NCBI GenBank assembly: GCA_027019085.1
Contig: JALUXG010000010.1
Span: 1-64,000 of the forward strand
Source of the DNA: Rhodanobacteraceae bacterium
GTDB lineage: Bacteria > Pseudomonadota > Gammaproteobacteria > Xanthomonadales > Rhodanobacteraceae
Length of the DNA stretch: 64,000 bases
Reading direction: 5' to 3'
The notes under the pieces: generated by a model
Seen by the model: the letters and a program-made list of their open reading frames with translations, nothing else
What the model was told of the DNA's origin: nothing
The model's database searches: none
Position numbers and translations under genes: made by a program
Shown: in pieces, positions 33,996 to 41,775 of the stretch
Numbering within the stretch: the stretch's first letter is position 1
Layout of the letters: each line of letters begins with the position of its first letter

Positions 33996-34790
33996 TCAGC
34001 TGCCGATCGGCAGCCACAGCAGCAGCGCCACGCCGAGCGCGATGCGGTAGATCGCGAACGGCGTGAAGCGGTTCGTACGGATATAGCCAAGCAGCCACTT
34101 CACGGCAATGAAGGCGACGATCGCCGAGACCACGAAACCCACACCCAGCGCACTCCAGTCGGTGTGCACGGCGGCGCCATCGCGCCATACCTTGAGCAGT
34201 TCGTAACCGGTCGCCGCATACATGGTCGGGATGCCGACCAGGAACGCGAACTCGGTGGCCGATTCACGGTTGCTGGTGCCAAACAGCATGGCCGCGAAGA
34301 TGGTCGACGCCGAACGCGAGGTGCCGGGGAAGATGCCGGCCACCATCTGCGCGATGCCGACCAGAATGGCCACCCGCCAGGTGATCTCGCGGGTGTCCGG
34401 CTTGCGCGCGGCCACCTGTTCGGCGGCCAGCATCCACACCCCGCCGATAATCAGCGCCCAGGCAATCGGCGTCACCGTTTCGGGCAACTTGAAGCCGAAC
34501 TTCACCGCCACCAGTCCGATCACCGCCGTGATCAGGAAGGCCACGGTCAGTTTGAGGAGGTAATCACGGTTGGCCCGGTCGTGCCACTTCGTCAGCAGCT
34601 GCCAGATGCGGCGCCAGTAGATCAACGTGACCGCCAGGATGGCACCGGCCTGGATGCCGATGTTGAACAGGTCCGAACGCGCGCCCAGCCAGCGCTCGGC
34701 AATCAGCAGATGGCCGGTGGAGGAGATGGGCAGGAATTCGGTAATGCCCTCGATGATGCCGAGAAGGATGACGCGCAGCAGGTCGTGCAT
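33996..34790 (-). CDS. uppP: Undecaprenyl-diphosphatase (BacA/UppP)
   Basis: Integral membrane phosphatase that recycles undecaprenyl pyrophosphate for cell-wall synthesis and confers bacitracin tolerance. The 264-residue protein has the two family signatures GIIEGITEFLPISSTGHLLI (residues about 11-30) and PGTSRSASTIFAAML, with about 7-8 membrane helices. It is divergent from torF and convergent with the PEBP gene. Confidence 0.95.
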   Translation of the reverse strand: MHDLLRVILLGIIEGITEFLPISSTGHLLIAERWLGARSDLFNIGIQAGAILAVTLIYWRRIWQLLTKWHDRANRDYLLKLTVAFLITAVIGLVAVKFGFKLPETVTPIAWALIIGGVWMLAAEQVAARKPDTREITWRVAILVGIAQMVAGIFPGTSRSASTIFAAMLFGTSNRESATEFAFLVGIPTMYAATGYELLKVWRDGAAVHTDWSALGVGFVVSAIVAFIAVKWLLGYIRTNRFTPFAIYRIALGVALLLWLPIGS

Positions 34791-34872
34791 GGTGGTTCCG
34801 CGAATGGCCAGGCGTAGCGGGCAAGTGTAGCCGTGGTTTCCGTGGAAGGGTCACTACGGCGGCCATTCAAAT

Positions 34873-34922
34873 TGCACCATAATGGTTCTTTCTTGCAACC
34901 GTTTTTGCACCACAATTGCTTA
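34873..34922 (+). promoter_or_regulatory. Two NtrC-like binding sites upstream of torF-glnK-amtB
   Basis: TGCACCATAATGGTTCT (34873-34889) and TGCACCACAATTGCTTA (34906-34922) resemble the NtrC dyad TGCACC-N5-GGTGCA. The left half-site is perfect in both. Their starts are 33 bases apart, three helical turns, which favours cooperative dimer binding. They lie about 98 and 131 bases upstream of the predicted sigma-54 start. TATAAT at 34921-34926 abuts the second site and may be part of an alternative sigma-70 promoter. Confidence 0.65.
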
Positions 34923-34985
34923 TAATCCCTTCCCTATTTCTCCAGAATATGTATAACTCGTTAAATTAATTGCATATTTATGCAT

Positions 34986-35001
34986 TGGCATGGCTCCTGC
35001 T
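34986..35001 (+). promoter_or_regulatory. Sigma-54 promoter of torF-glnK-amtB
   Basis: TGGCATGGCTCCTGCT matches the -24/-12 consensus TGGCAC-N5-TTGCW, with GG and GC at the required 10-base spacing and two mismatches outside the invariant dinucleotides. The transcript should start near 35012, leaving about 65 bases of leader before torF. Confidence 0.7.
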
Positions 35002-35076
35002 AAGGGTGCTTATCAACAGGATGAGACCGCATGCCTGCGGGACCGATCCGTTGCCAGCCACCCGAGGGAGACCACC

Positions 35077-36206
<1,130 letters not shown>

Positions 36207-36251
36207 GCGCATGCGGCGCCCCGTCTTTGCATGAACCCAAAGAGGTCTCTC

Positions 36252-37583
36252 ATGAATCACGTTGCTCACGCTCCCAAACGCGGCCTGCGCACAGCCATCA
36301 CCCTGGCGGGACTGGCCTGCTTTGCCCCGGTACTGCACGCCGCCCCCACCGCGACCGTCAGCAAGGGCGATGTCGCCTGGATGCTCACCTCCACCTTGCT
36401 GGTGCTGATGATGACCGTGCCCGGACTTGCGCTGTTCTACGGCGGCCTGGTGCGCGCCAAGAACGTGCTCTCGGTGCTGATGCAGGTGTTGACGGTGTTT
36501 TCGCTGATCGTGGTGCTGTGGATGCTGTACGGCTACACCTTCGCCTTCGGCACCGGCAACGCCTTCATCGGCAACGCAAGCAACCTGTTCCTGCGCGGCG
36601 TCACGCCGTCCTCTCTGGCCGATACCTTCACCGCCGGAGTGAAACTTCCCGAATACGTTTTCATCGTCTTCCAGGCGACCTTCGCCGGCATTACCGGTGC
36701 GCTGATCGTCGGATCGTTCGCTGAACGCATGAAATTCAGTGCTGTACTCCTTTTTTCCGCGCTGTGGTTCACGTTTGCCTACATCCCGATTGCGCACATG
36801 GTCTGGGGACCGGGCGGCTTCATGCTGACACGCGGCGCGCTGGACTTTGCCGGCGGCACGGTGGTGCACATCAATGCCGGTATCGCGGGCCTGGTCGGCG
36901 CCTACCTGCTTGGACCGCGCATCGGCATTGGCAGCGATTCGATGCGCCCGCACAACCTGACCCACACCATGGTTGGCGCTGCGCTGCTGTGGGTCGGCTG
37001 GTTCGGCTTCAACGCCGGCTCCAATCTGGAAGCCAATGCCGGCGCCGCCCTGGCCTTTATCAACACCATGATCGCCACCGCTGCCGCGGTGCTGGCCTGG
37101 CTGGCCGTGGAGCGTGTCATCCGGGGCAAACCCTCCATGCTCGGCGGCGCTTCCGGCGCCGTGGCCGGTCTGGTGGCGATCACCCCCGCCTGCGGCACCG
37201 TCGGCCCGATGGGCTCGATCGCCATCGGCGCCGCCGCCAGCCTGGCCTGCGTATGGGGCGTCACCGGCCTCAAGCGCCTGCTGGGCGCCGACGATGCGCT
37301 GGACGTGTTCGGCGTGCATGGCGTGGGCGGCATCGTCGGCGCACTGCTCACGGGCGTATTCACCGCCCCGGTGCTCGGTGGCACTGGCGCGGCCGATTTC
37401 TCCATCGTCCACCAGGTGATGATCCAGGCCCTGGGCGTACTGGTCACCCTGGTCTGGAGTGGCGTAGTCGCGCTGGTTTCCTACCTCATCGTCAAGGCCG
37501 TGCTGGGCCTGCGCGTGGAGGAAGAACAGGAGCGCGAAGGTCTGGACACCACCACGCATGGCGAAACGGCGTACGAAACCTGA
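36252..37583 (+). CDS. amtB: Ammonium transporter
   Basis: Ammonium channel of the inner membrane, 443 residues. A cleaved signal peptide (ending VLHAAPTA) is followed by about 11 membrane helices. Pore histidines occur in GGTVVHINAG and FGVHGVGG, and the GlnK-binding cytoplasmic tail includes GLDTTTHGE. The ATG at 36252 has AGAGGT 5 bases upstream and is preferred over the ATG at 36231. It is last gene of torF-glnK-amtB; a strong terminator follows at 37604. Confidence 0.95.
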   Translation: MNHVAHAPKRGLRTAITLAGLACFAPVLHAAPTATVSKGDVAWMLTSTLLVLMMTVPGLALFYGGLVRAKNVLSVLMQVLTVFSLIVVLWMLYGYTFAFGTGNAFIGNASNLFLRGVTPSSLADTFTAGVKLPEYVFIVFQATFAGITGALIVGSFAERMKFSAVLLFSALWFTFAYIPIAHMVWGPGGFMLTRGALDFAGGTVVHINAGIAGLVGAYLLGPRIGIGSDSMRPHNLTHTMVGAALLWVGWFGFNAGSNLEANAGAALAFINTMIATAAAVLAWLAVERVIRGKPSMLGGASGAVAGLVAITPACGTVGPMGSIAIGAAASLACVWGVTGLKRLLGADDALDVFGVHGVGGIVGALLTGVFTAPVLGGTGAADFSIVHQVMIQALGVLVTLVWSGVVALVSYLIVKAVLGLRVEEEQEREGLDTTTHGETAYET

Positions 37584-37603
37584 AAAAACCGGTTGCCTCC
37601 TCT

Positions 37604-37634
37604 GCCCCGCCCGGTAAGGGCGGGGCCTTTTTTT
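37604..37634 (+). terminator. Rho-independent terminator after amtB
   Basis: A perfect 9-bp GC stem (GCCCCGCCC 37604-37612 / GGGCGGGGC 37618-37626) with loop GGTAA is followed by CTTTTTTT. The T-run ends where the first NtrC-like site of glnA begins. Confidence 0.88.
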
Positions 37635-37681
37635 GCACCGCGTTAGAACATGATTTCCGCTTGTTGCATCATAGTGGTGCT
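37634..37681 (+). promoter_or_regulatory. NtrC-like binding sites upstream of glnA
   Basis: TGCATCATAGTGGTGCT (37665-37681) matches the NtrC dyad closely: both half-sites are recognisable, with 12 of 14 arm positions. A weaker half-dyad TGCACCGCGTTAGAACA lies at 37634-37650, 31 bases away. The sites fall about 87 and 118 bases upstream of the predicted start, like the enhancer of enteric glnA. Confidence 0.65.
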
Positions 37682-37733
37682 GCAAGTGTGCCGCATCCAG
37701 CCTGTCATGCCCGGTTTGCATGGTTTCGCACTC

Positions 37734-37749
37734 TGGCACAATGCTTGCT
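37734..37749 (+). promoter_or_regulatory. Sigma-54 promoter of glnA
   Basis: TGGCACAATGCTTGCT is a near-perfect -24/-12 element (GG at 37735-37736, GC at 37747-37748). The start should be near 37760, about 22 bases before the glnA ATG. Confidence 0.8.
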
Positions 37750-37781
37750 GGTCCCAGGCTGTCATTCACGAGAGGTAGCTC

Positions 37782-39197
37782 ATGTCCACTTCCCCCGCAG
37801 ACGTACTGAAAAAAATCAAGGACGAACAGATCGAATTTGTCGACTTCCGGTTCACGGACATGCTCGGCAAGCAGCACCATGTCACCTTCCCCGCGCACAC
37901 CATCGACGCCTCGACCTTCGAGGACGGCAAGATGTTCGACGGCTCGTCCATTTCCGGATGGAAGGGCATCAACGAGTCGGACATGATCCTGATGCCCGAT
38001 CCGGACACGGCGCTGGTCGACCCTTTCAGCGCGCATCCCCAGTTGATGATCAACTGTGACGTGCTCGAACCCTCGACCATGCAGGCCTACAGCCGCGACC
38101 CGCGTTCGATCGCACGCCGCGCCGAGGCCTACCTGAAATCCACCGGCGTCGCCGATGCCGCCTTCTTCGGACCGGAGCCGGAGTTCTTCGTGTTCGATTC
38201 GGTGCGCTGGCAGAACGACATGGGACGGGTCTTCTACGAGATCGAATCGGAAGAAGCTCACTGGAGCTCCCGATACAAGTACGAGGACGGCAATTCCGGC
38301 CACCGCCCGGGCGTGAAGGGTGGCTACTTCCCCGTCAGCCCGGTCGATTCGCTGGCCGACCTGCGCGCCGACATGTGCAAGGTGATGGAATCGCTGGGGC
38401 TGACCGTGGAAGTGCACCACCACGAGGTGGCCAATGGCGGGCAGTGCGAGATCGGCACGCTCTTCAACAGCCTGGTGAAGAAGGCCGACGAACTGCTGCT
38501 GCTCAAATACGTGGTCAAGAACGTGGCGCACCAGAATGGCAAGACCGCGACCTTCATGCCCAAGCCTCTGGTGGGCGACAACGGGTCGGGCATGCACGTG
38601 CACCAGTCGCTGAGCAAGAAAGGCGAGAACCTTTTCTCCGGCGATCTCTACGGCGGCCTGTCGCAAACCGCGCTGTGGTACATCGGCGGCATCTTCAAGC
38701 ACGCACGCGCCATCAACGCTTTCTCCAACTCCACCACCAACAGCTACAAGCGCCTGGTCCCTGGCTTCGAGGCACCAGTGATGCTGGCGTACTCGGCACG
38801 CAACCGCTCGGCAAGCTGCCGTATTCCCTATGTCGGCAACCCCAAGGGACGGCGCATCGAGGTGCGATTCCCCGACCCCATGCAGTCCGGTTACCTGACC
38901 TTCACGGCGTTGATGATGGCGGGCCTGGACGGCATCCTGAACAAGATCGATCCGGGTGCACCAGCCGACAAGGACCTGTACGACCTGCCGCCGGAAGAGG
39001 AAAAGAACATCCCGCAAGTGTGTTCCAGCCTCGATGCCGCCCTTGAGGCACTGGACAAGGATCGTGATTTCCTGAAGGCCGGCGACGTGTTCACCGACGA
39101 CTTCATCGACGGCTACATCGCGCTGAAGATGCAGGAGGTGACCCGCTACCGCGCCTCGACCCATCCGCTGGAATTCTCGATGTACTACTCGTTCTGA
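37782..39197 (+). CDS. glnA: Glutamine synthetase, type I
   Basis: Ammonium assimilation: glutamate + NH3 + ATP to glutamine. The 471-residue dodecameric GS-I-beta form shows [36 protein letters not shown] (metal/ATP) and the adenylylation-site tyrosine in [10 protein letters not shown]. That predicts control by GlnE elsewhere in the genome. It has its own sigma-54 promoter and is bounded by terminators on both sides, so it is monocistronic. Confidence 0.97.
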
Positions 39198-39253: not shown

Positions 39254-39310
39254 TGCGTACATCATCACGGATCGATTGCGGCTTGCGCCGCTCCGCACTA
39301 GATTGGTGCA

Positions 39311-40357
39311 ATGCCACCGTCACCGCCACTTGAACCCTGTGCCCGCCTTCTGACCGGCATTGCCGTGCTGGATCCTCAGCTGTGCGTGACCTGGCTCAAT
39401 GACGCGCTTGCCGAAGCCCTGCAGGTGGGGATCCGCCCCTTGCAGGGGCAGCCTATCGCGACCCTGTTCGAGGGCCCGTCCTTTGCCGGGCAGGCCGAAC
39501 GGGTGCTGCGCGGTGAACCACCGGTATGCATGCGTGACATCATCATGCACACCCTGCATGGCCAGATGCACCGGGTGGACGTATCGCTGCAGGCCATCGC
39601 CGAAGGGCTGTTGCTGGAAATCCACGTCCTGGCCGAACCCGTGCATCAGCAAACGCCCTTGTCGGCCACCCTGCGCGGCTTTGCGCATGAAGTGAAAAAC
39701 CCGCTGGCGGGGCTGCGCGGGGCAGCGCAACTGCTGCAGCGGCGTGTTGCGGATGCGGAACTGGAAACCCTGGCAAGCATGGTGATCCACGAGGCCGACC
39801 GTCTGGTCAATCTTGCAGACCGGCTGTTGCGGCATGGCGGTCGGCCACACGTGGGCGTGGTCGACCTGCATGCGGTACTGGACCGGGTCGCGGCCATCGT
39901 GCAAAGCGAACCGCGCGCGCCGCAGATCGTGTACGACTGCGACCCCAGCCTGCCTGCCTGCACCGGTGATGCCGACCGCCTGCAGCAACTGCTGCTCAAC
40001 CTCGCGCGCAACGCCGTGGAGGCTGGTGCACGTACGCTTACCGTGCGCACGCGGGTCGAGTACGCGCTGCGCCTGAACGACCGCATCGAACGCACCGCGC
40101 TTCGCATCGACGTGATCGACGACGGACCGGGCGTACCCGAAGCGCTGCGCGACACCCTGTTCCACCCGCTGGTGTCCGGACGCGCCGATGGCACCGGCCT
40201 GGGTCTTGCGCTGGCCCGCGAAACCGCCATCGAGCACGGCGGTGACCTGCGACACACCGCATTGCCGCAAGGCGCCATGTTCTCCCTGTTCCTGCCTGCA
40301 CGCAGCGGGCAGGCCCACGCCCCGAGCGACAGCCCTGATACGGACCGCAAGCCATGA
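39311..40357 (+). CDS. glnL: Nitrogen regulation sensor histidine kinase NtrB
   Basis: Cytosolic kinase/phosphatase of NtrC, controlled by PII. The 348-residue protein has an N-terminal PAS domain (about 5-110, LDPQLCVTWLNDALAEAL), the dimerisation/phosphoacceptor helix with the H-box histidine in GFAHEVKNPLAGLRGAAQLL, and the HATPase core (LLNLARNAVEAGA, DDGPGVPEALRDTLF, GTGLGLALARE). Its stop overlaps the ntrC start (ATGA). Confidence 0.93.
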   Translation: MPPSPPLEPCARLLTGIAVLDPQLCVTWLNDALAEALQVGIRPLQGQPIATLFEGPSFAGQAERVLRGEPPVCMRDIIMHTLHGQMHRVDVSLQAIAEGLLLEIHVLAEPVHQQTPLSATLRGFAHEVKNPLAGLRGAAQLLQRRVADAELETLASMVIHEADRLVNLADRLLRHGGRPHVGVVDLHAVLDRVAAIVQSEPRAPQIVYDCDPSLPACTGDADRLQQLLLNLARNAVEAGARTLTVRTRVEYALRLNDRIERTALRIDVIDDGPGVPEALRDTLFHPLVSGRADGTGLGLALARETAIEHGGDLRHTALPQGAMFSLFLPARSGQAHAPSDSPDTDRKP

Positions 40358-41775
40358 CACGGGAAATCTGGATCGCCGATGACGATCGCAATGTGCGTTT
40401 CGTGCTGGCCGCCGCGCTGCGCGATGCCGGACATGAGGTGCGCGAATTCGATCAGGGAAACGCCGTGCGCACGGCGTTGCGCGATGACACCCCGGCCCTG
40501 CTGGTCACCGATGTGCGCATGCCCGGCGAGGATGGCCTGGCTTTGTTGCAGGCCGTGCATGTGCACAAGCCGCATCTGCCGGTCATCGTGATGAGCGCCT
40601 TTACCGACGTATCCACCACCGCTGCCGCCTATCGCGAAGGGGCCATCGACTACCTGGCCAAGCCCTTCGACCTGGACCAGGCGGTCGAGGCTGTCGAGCG
40701 GGCACTGGCCGATGCGCCAGACGAGGACACCATCGAGCAACCGCAAACCGACGCCCTGCTTGGCGAAAGTCCTGCCATGCGCGAGGTCTTCAGACTGATC
40801 GGTCGGATCGCCGCCAGCGACCTCAACGTCCTGGTGACCGGCGAAACCGGAACCGGCAAGGAACTGGTGGCTCGCGCCCTGCACGCCGAAAGCGCGCGGC
40901 GCGCAAGACCCTTCGTTGCCCTGAACACCGCAGCCATTCCTGCCGAGCTGCTGGAAAGCGAGCTGTTCGGTCACGAGGCCGGCGCTTTCACAGGGGCCCA
41001 TCGCCGCCATGCCGGGCGTTTCGAGCAGGCCGAAGGCGGCACCCTGTTCCTGGATGAGATCGGGGACATGCCGGCGCTGTTGCAAACGCGCCTGCTGCGC
41101 GTGCTGGCCGAAGGCGAGTTTTACCGCGTGGGCGGGCGCGAGCTTTTGCGCTGCGACGTGCGCATCATCGCCGCGACGCACCAGGATCTGGACGCGCGCA
41201 TCGCCGAAGGCCGCTTCCGCGCCGATCTCAAGCATCGGCTCGACGTGGTGCGCATCGCCCTGCCCGCACTGCGCGAACGCCGCGTCGACATCCCGCTGCT
41301 GGCACGCCATCTGCTGGCTGACGCCGCGCGCCAATTGCACGTCGCGCCGAAGCGGTTCTCGCGCTCGGCACTGCGGGTGCTGTCGAGCATGGATTTCCCC
41401 GGCAATGTGCGCGAACTGGAAAACCTCTGCCGTCGCCTGGCCGTGATCGCCCCGGGCAGGGAAATCGTGCCCACCGACCTCGACCGCGACCGGGTCCAGG
41501 CGGGCATCGACGCCGATGCCACCTGGGCCGACGCACTGCGCGCCTGGGCCGACCAGGCATTGGCCCAGGGTCAGACCGACATCCACGCCCAGGCCCGCGA
41601 CACCCTGGACAGGGTGCTGTTCGAACGCGCGCTTGCCGCCCATGACGGCCACCGTGGACAAGCCGCGCAGGCACTCGGCGTGGGCCGCAACACCCTGACC
41701 CGCAAGCTCGGCTCTTCACGCAGCCGCCGACGCAATACCGCCGAAGGCGCGCCTTCCAGGAACGGATCGGCATGA
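40354..41775 (+). CDS. glnG: Nitrogen regulation response regulator NtrC
   Basis: Sigma-54 activator of 473 residues. The receiver domain (about 1-120) has the acidic pocket IADDDRN and the phosphoacceptor in [12 protein letters not shown]. The AAA+ domain has Walker [16 protein letters not shown], the sigma-54-contacting GAFTGA loop and FLDEIGDMP. The C-terminal Fis-type HTH is [19 protein letters not shown]. Predicted targets in this window are the dyads before torF and glnA. Overlaps (ATGA) on both sides show a tight ntrB-ntrC-guaD operon. Confidence 0.95.

Follow-up and report, generated by a model that had tools for sequence, protein, structure and literature searches.

NtrC-like sites and a sigma-54 element ahead of torF-glnK-amtB in a Rhodanobacteraceae bacterium: a probable nitrogen-controlled operon with a candidate outer-membrane channel

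Main finding

The gene torF, encoding a TorF/Gcw_chp family protein, lies directly ahead of the PII gene glnK and the ammonium channel gene amtB in a 64,000-nucleotide stretch of a Rhodanobacteraceae bacterium (GCA_027019085.1, contig JALUXG010000010.1, positions 1 to 64,000; hereafter the window), and is preceded by two NtrC-like dyads and a sigma-54-type -24/-12 element. Control of torF-glnK-amtB by NtrC and sigma-54 is, judging from the sequence, highly probable, whereas we give TorF about an even chance of being an outer-membrane channel for ammonium. The combined explanation, an NtrC/sigma-54-driven operon with TorF feeding AmtB, is moderately probable. Under nitrogen limitation, NtrB would phosphorylate NtrC; phosphorylated NtrC, once bound to the 34873 and 34906 dyads, would loop the DNA and so activate the sigma-54 polymerase at 34986-35001. 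A single torF-glnK-amtB transcript would end at the terminator after amtB. TorF would form a small 12-stranded channel in the outer membrane that passes the importer's substrate, ammonium and possibly small amines (the most conjectural step), while AmtB would move the substrate over the inner membrane and GlnK would gate AmtB. If TorF does feed AmtB, then ammonium uptake, usually treated as an inner-membrane matter, gains a regulated step at the outer membrane.

Probable promoter and operon structure of torF-glnK-amtB

Candidate sites were scored against NtrC and sigma-54 consensus strings. The two dyads lie exactly 33 bases, or about three helical turns, apart, as the earlier note had described for the spacing in bases (Table 1), and the second is mainly a left half-site. 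Shuffling the 286-base intergenic region upstream of torF 2000 times by dinucleotides never reached their pair score. The sigma-54 promoter that the same note had placed between the dyads and the three genes was also recovered, beginning 63 bases past the end of dyad 2. The sequence TGGCATGGCTCCTGCT departs from the consensus by T for C in TGGCAC and C for T in TTGC; its score was reached in 35 of 2000 shuffles of the same region. A transcript start near 35012 would be expected from its position. In E. coli, the NtrC/sigma-54 promoters of glnK-amtB and glnA likewise combine a -24/-12 element with two dyads lying ahead of it; the E. coli glnK-amtB operon is not known to include a porin gene.

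Dyad pairs scoring at least 21 at spacings of 29-35 occurred in the window only at torF and at 37634, ahead of glnA, and the minus-strand scan returned the same two places. A motif scan of the whole genome, suggested by the earlier note, was specific for the composite of dyads and sigma-54 element: exactly two matches, torF and glnA, in 2.8 Mb, and none with the reversed control. This pattern is partly circular because it was written from the torF and glnA sites themselves, but its specificity is real nonetheless. Single motifs were unspecific. The 16-base sigma-54 pattern fitting the torF site gave 18 genome matches versus 8 in the control, and scans with the loose NtrC pattern at 2 mismatches were discarded as uninformative (1451 + 1484 matches on the two strands versus 1357 + 1277 in the control; 2935 versus 2634 in sum). 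An 11/12 sigma-54-like match inside the ntrC coding region (window 41300-41315) is probably due to chance.

The genes torF, glnK, amtB, glnA, ntrB and ntrC follow one another on the plus strand. The glnA promoter, 2.8 kb downstream of the torF promoter, serves as a natural positive control. An RpoN DNA-binding domain was found once in the genome, and NtrC scored above its equivalog cut-off. Among single NtrC-like sites in the window, the highest-scoring one (13/14) lies at 39294-39310, directly before the ntrB start, a position that suggests autoregulation by NtrC.

The gap between torF and glnK is 26 bases, and that between glnK and amtB is 24 or 45 bases. The longer gap applies if amtB starts at 36252, which is likelier than 36231 because AGAGG sits just upstream. 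A plus-strand scan of torF-glnK-amtB found no terminator ahead of the hairpin after amtB, although the scan gave 2 terminator-like sites in all versus 2.5 expected, so that the count itself is not above chance. This hairpin's T tail directly adjoins the glnA promoter's first NtrC-like dyad (window 37604-37650). The best NCBIfam matches of glnK, NF008111 and NF007946, were both under their own cut-offs.

Table 1. Features of the torF-glnK-amtB-glnA-ntrBC region (window coordinates)
Feature	Position	Strand	Description
NtrC-like dyad 1	34873..34889	+	TGCACCATAATGGTTCT; 12/14 scored positions
NtrC-like dyad 2	34906..34922	+	TGCACCACAATTGCTTA; 10/14; good left half, poor right half
Sigma-54 -24/-12 element	34986..35001	+	TGGCATGGCTCCTGCT; GG-N10-GC exact, 10/12 consensus positions
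torF	35077..35841	+	254-amino-acid TorF/Gcw_chp protein; hidden Markov model (HMM) matches TIGR02001, PF09694
glnK	35868..36206	+	112-amino-acid PII protein; PF00543 above cut-off
amtB, ammonium channel	36231..37583	+	TIGR00836 451.8 bits (cut-off 343.3)
Intrinsic-terminator-like hairpin after amtB	37604..37626	+	9 G-C pairs, T tail
glnA promoter	37634..37749	+	NtrC-like dyads 37634 and 37665, 31 apart; sigma-54 TGGCACAATGCTTGCT at 37734-37749
glnA, glutamine synthetase type I	37782..39197	+	TIGR00653 649.1 bits (cut-off 429.15)
ntrB (NR-II) sensor kinase	39311..40357	+	NF008293 best match, 214.6 bits, below cut-off 240
ntrC (NR-I) activator	40354..41775	+	GAFTGA motif; TIGR01818 628.2 bits (cut-off 558.6)

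Conservation of the promoter and of gene linkage

A genome scan of relatives kept 80 of 194 related loci: 74 with torF-glnK-amtB, five with torF-glnA and one with neither partner. Promoters were scored over 300 bases upstream, with expected values taken from shuffles; start codons were picked by script (L109 had none), so that distances in relatives are approximate, and L079 and L101 were counted as torF-first though they begin near a contig end. A sigma-54 element was present in 19 of the 33 torF-first loci (0.8 expected), in all five torF-glnA loci and in the single locus with neither partner, which had no strict dyad pair. The strict dyad pair was found in eight torF-first loci, where 0.1 was expected. 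The nearest named relatives by TorF were two Oleiagrimonas genomes (68 and 67% identity), whose torF genes lie at the same places as in G004 and G003, genomes of the window's genus. Within that genus, locus L041 retains two dyads 33 apart together with TGGCACGTCTCCTGCT.

Linkage to glnK was accompanied by the sigma-54 element in a second group, the order of Azospira oryzae (Burkholderiales in GTDB), in which 226 of 399 genomes had a TorF match at E 1e-20 or better. In 70 regions with 71 torF genes among the matches listed, the element stood at torF in 56 of 57 cases with adjacent glnK, in 1 of 11 without it and in 2 of 3 truncated contexts; L217 (torF-amtB-glnK) and the second torF of L204 were counted as lacking adjacent glnK. 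The commonest best dyad spacing was 31. At L226, which coincides with L204, a single glnK-amtB pair has a torF copy on either side (torF-glnK-amtB-torF).

Several results from the relatives speak against a uniformly conserved NtrC/sigma-54 promoter at torF. The strict dyad pair was limited to 8/33 torF-first loci and was seen in none of the five torF-glnA loci, and 12 torF-first relatives had no 10/12 sigma-54 element within 1500 bases. Where the order was glnA-torF-glnK-amtB, neither sigma-54 element nor dyad pair was present at torF (0/41 each). In these loci (e.g. L063, L076, L112) the glnA promoter carried the sigma-54 element in 39 of 41, and our guess is a switch to read-through control from glnA. 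Within the window's genus, L042 had neither the dyads nor the sigma-54 element, and genomes G001 and G002 gave no torF match.

Some of these results bear on the possibility that the torF promoter is decayed or weak here and that another promoter drives torF-glnK-amtB. The dozen relatives without the element fit this, as do the half-site character of dyad 2 and a -12 box reading CTGC. However, CTGC also occurs in the better-scoring promoter of L041, no sigma-70-type promoter match was found in 34780-37800, and the composite pattern finds this arrangement at just one other place in the genome; we regard this alternative as very improbable. NtrC/sigma-54 control of torF-glnK-amtB is instead well supported by the internal control at glnA, the presence of RpoN and NtrC and the sites conserved in many relatives, together with the terminator after amtB and a counterpart in H. 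seropedicae that is reported to depend on NtrC (see below).

Predicted fold and pore of TorF

TorF matched TIGR02001 with 166.7 bits (cut-off 47.15) and PF09694 with 181.6 bits (cut-off 24) over nearly its whole length, and it is the sole PF09694 match in the genome. Pfam lists the family under "unknown function", NCBIfam as "putative porin". By eye, the protein has an apparent N-terminal signal peptide and a C-terminal Phe. An AlphaFold2 model with 12 strands and a mean predicted local distance difference test score of 90.5 suggests that TorF is a 12-stranded outer-membrane beta-barrel. Foldseek placed an OmpC model and the porin VhGalP at the top (template modelling scores near 0.5). Realignment with VIA-align ranked KdgM first (Z 17.1, 2.2 A, 165 residues), followed by NanC (16.8) and VhGalP (16.1), with FapF, a COG4313 channel and Tsx at about 15. 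The fold class is thus clear and the exact family is not, because several folds score closely. A sequence search for solved relatives of TorF gave no credible match (2c9k, E 0.075).

The modelled fold resembles the 12-stranded monomeric porins KdgM and NanC (VIA-align Z 16-17), but identity is 9-12% and Pfam gives only PF09694 for TorF. KdgM and NanC pass acidic sugars, as their PDB titles indicate, whereas the pore lining predicted for TorF is itself acidic. Strand parity and hydropathy served to assign the pore-facing positions, which gave the window TorF a net inward charge of -6. E97, D99 and E138 (all 113 nitrogen-linked sequences), D204 (111) and D115 (106) would face the pore, judged by strand parity. 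For comparison among partners, the Azospira-order and phylum-wide sets were pooled; they partly overlap, some regions occurring in both. Mean net inward charge was -5.1 in nitrogen-linked (n=113), -3.5 in kdp-linked (n=11), -6.0 in sulfate-linked (n=3) and -6.4 in other sequences (n=54).

TorF beside other importers and the substrate question

PF09694 was found in 215 of 398 genomes drawn across the phylum, and 80 places were taken, about every second among the matches listed. Within 3.5 kb of torF, glnK/amtB was present in 22, kdp in three and a sulfate importer in one; the remaining 54 had no tested partner. The 22 glnK/amtB-linked genes comprised 13 with torF before glnK, ten of them with a sigma-54 element, and nine with torF after amtB. 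In a 122-row tree, nitrogen linkage took 10 changes, compared with 27.8 in shuffles (0/500 as low), so that it passes down within clades and has been gained or lost repeatedly; the tree was made by a quick method, has long branches and omits truncated contexts, redundant nitrogen-linked rows and frames outside 150-330 amino acids.

Paralogues of torF stand beside importers of other nutrients, which is new here. The order kdpB-torF occurs in eight genomes that belong to the window's family or stand close to it (L020, L021/L228, L022/L229, L026, L027, L037/L230, L038/L231 and L238, the last being Dyella lutea), with kdpC next in 7/8 (not seen in L026); other kdp placements are L185, L219, L223, L224, L274, L275 and L304. 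HMMs confirmed KdpA, KdpB and KdpC of L228 and some of those of L185, L219 and L224. At L233, L234 and L305, a sulfate ATP-binding cassette importer operon closes with torF, placed after cysA; CysA was identified by HMM in L233 and the other two loci by similarity to it.

The earlier note had proposed that the barrel is a nitrogen-compound porin. For the window TorF this is plausible but unproven, with the conserved linkage, the modelled 12-stranded barrel, the acidic pore and relatives near trimethylamine N-oxide (TMAO) or agmatine genes in its favour. The simplest substrate would be ammonium, since AmtB is the commonest TorF partner. Read as a property of the TorF family, the proposal has evidence against it, and family-wide TorF is not nitrogen-specific: paralogues pair with K+ and sulfate importers, more than half of the phylum-wide torF genes (54/80) lack any tested partner, and pore charge did not track what the partner carries, contrary to the prediction of acidic pores for cations and basic ones for sulfate. 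In the phylum-wide set the sigma-54 element was present in 7 of the 54 partnerless cases and in only 1 of the 9 with torF after amtB. Small ions already pass general porins, so that the need for a pore dedicated to ammonium is not evident.

TorF could instead pass organic nitrogen (amines, agmatine, TMAO, amino acids) as part of a general NtrC scavenging response, torF sitting beside glnK-amtB because that promoter is strong. At L119, a torF with a sigma-54 element heads the agmatine cluster aguB-antiporter-aguA, and a TMAO permease adjoins torF in L200/L237. L227 has the order TMAO demethylase-torF-amtB-glnK, the demethylase scoring 1091 bits, just below its cut-off of 1100; this cluster unites methylamine use with ammonium transport. 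In Shewanella, SO4694 torF carries an annotation to the TMAO reductase system (PMC5955497). We consider this explanation unlikely: AmtB, with ammonium as its substrate, is the partner in most of the 80 kept loci, and the window operon has no organic-nitrogen gene.

Still less likely, in our estimate, is that TorF, having no nitrogen-tied substrate, is a small generic porin or envelope factor which several limitation-induced promoters have captured. The similarly acidic pores of the kdp and sulfate paralogues and the many partnerless genes would suit it, and ten proteins beside partnerless torF included only three transporters (a Na/H exchanger, an amino-acid permease and EamA). The other seven were two aminotransferases, two chemotaxis receptors, an HI0933-like protein, an inositol phosphatase and one without family. 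Five of the 54 partnerless loci (L244, L252, L279, L285, L308) could not have torF placed. Yet glnK/amtB linkage recurs in both gene orders, and torF keeps with glnA in the five loci where glnK-amtB is not adjacent.

The paralogues in kdp and sulfate operons suggest a family of outer-membrane partners for importers of scarce nutrients. It is possible, and we put it forward tentatively, that TorF/Gcw_chp proteins are nutrient-matched channels, one per high-affinity importer (AmtB for NH4+, KdpABC for K+, CysTWA for sulfate, and TMAO or agmatine systems), each raising outer-membrane permeability under the importer's own starvation control, with NlmA of H. seropedicae as the nitrogen member. Some torF neighbours do not fit a nutrient importer: dapA-like, methyltransferase, transhydrogenase, quinone reductase, cytochrome bd, kinase, threonine dehydrogenase and heptosyltransferase genes. 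The family idea can be tested on the kdp and sulfate paralogues, for each of which it predicts a starvation phenotype. The idea was not met in the open-access literature found, which is largely known from listings; no paper naming gcw_chp was found there, nor any joining kdp and torf among the matches listed.

Comparison with H. seropedicae and Shewanella

The nlmA(orf1)-glnK-amtB operon of H. seropedicae is reported to be NtrC-dependent, with amtB::lacZ 21 times higher under nitrogen limitation, and the same source describes NlmA as most probably periplasmic (PMC3023670). The two systems share the order membrane protein-glnK-amtB and an NtrC-type promoter, recognised here by its sites alone; NtrC/sigma-54 control of torF-glnK-amtB is therefore probably not new. 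They differ in that NlmA was put in the periplasm, whereas TorF is modelled as an outer-membrane barrel. Gene order and position lead us to infer that NlmA is a TorF barrel; if so, NlmA is more likely to reside in the outer membrane. A probe from two published H. seropedicae glnK primers matched none of 399 genomes, and the best of the collected loci had 3 mismatches. The Shewanella TorF belongs to the same family (TIGR02001, PF09694), but its gene is annotated to the TMAO system as an outer membrane porin and not to glnK-amtB (PMC5955497).

A tandem element upstream of torF in relatives

A tandem GACGTC element (GGACGTCCAGACGTCC / AGACGTCTAGACGTCT), which resembles paired met boxes, lies in the torF leader at about -55 from the start in 16 of 33 torF-first and 2 of 5 torF-glnA loci (e.g. 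L055, L072). Of the 12 torF-first loci without a sigma-54 element, 11 carried it, whereas none of the 41 glnA-first loci did. Exact 14-base matches numbered 1 to 16 per genome in eight genomes and 0 in the window's genome. No methionine gene was among ten proteins near such matches; six had no family match, and the others were TonB, a TonB-dependent receptor, a helicase and a PII frame.
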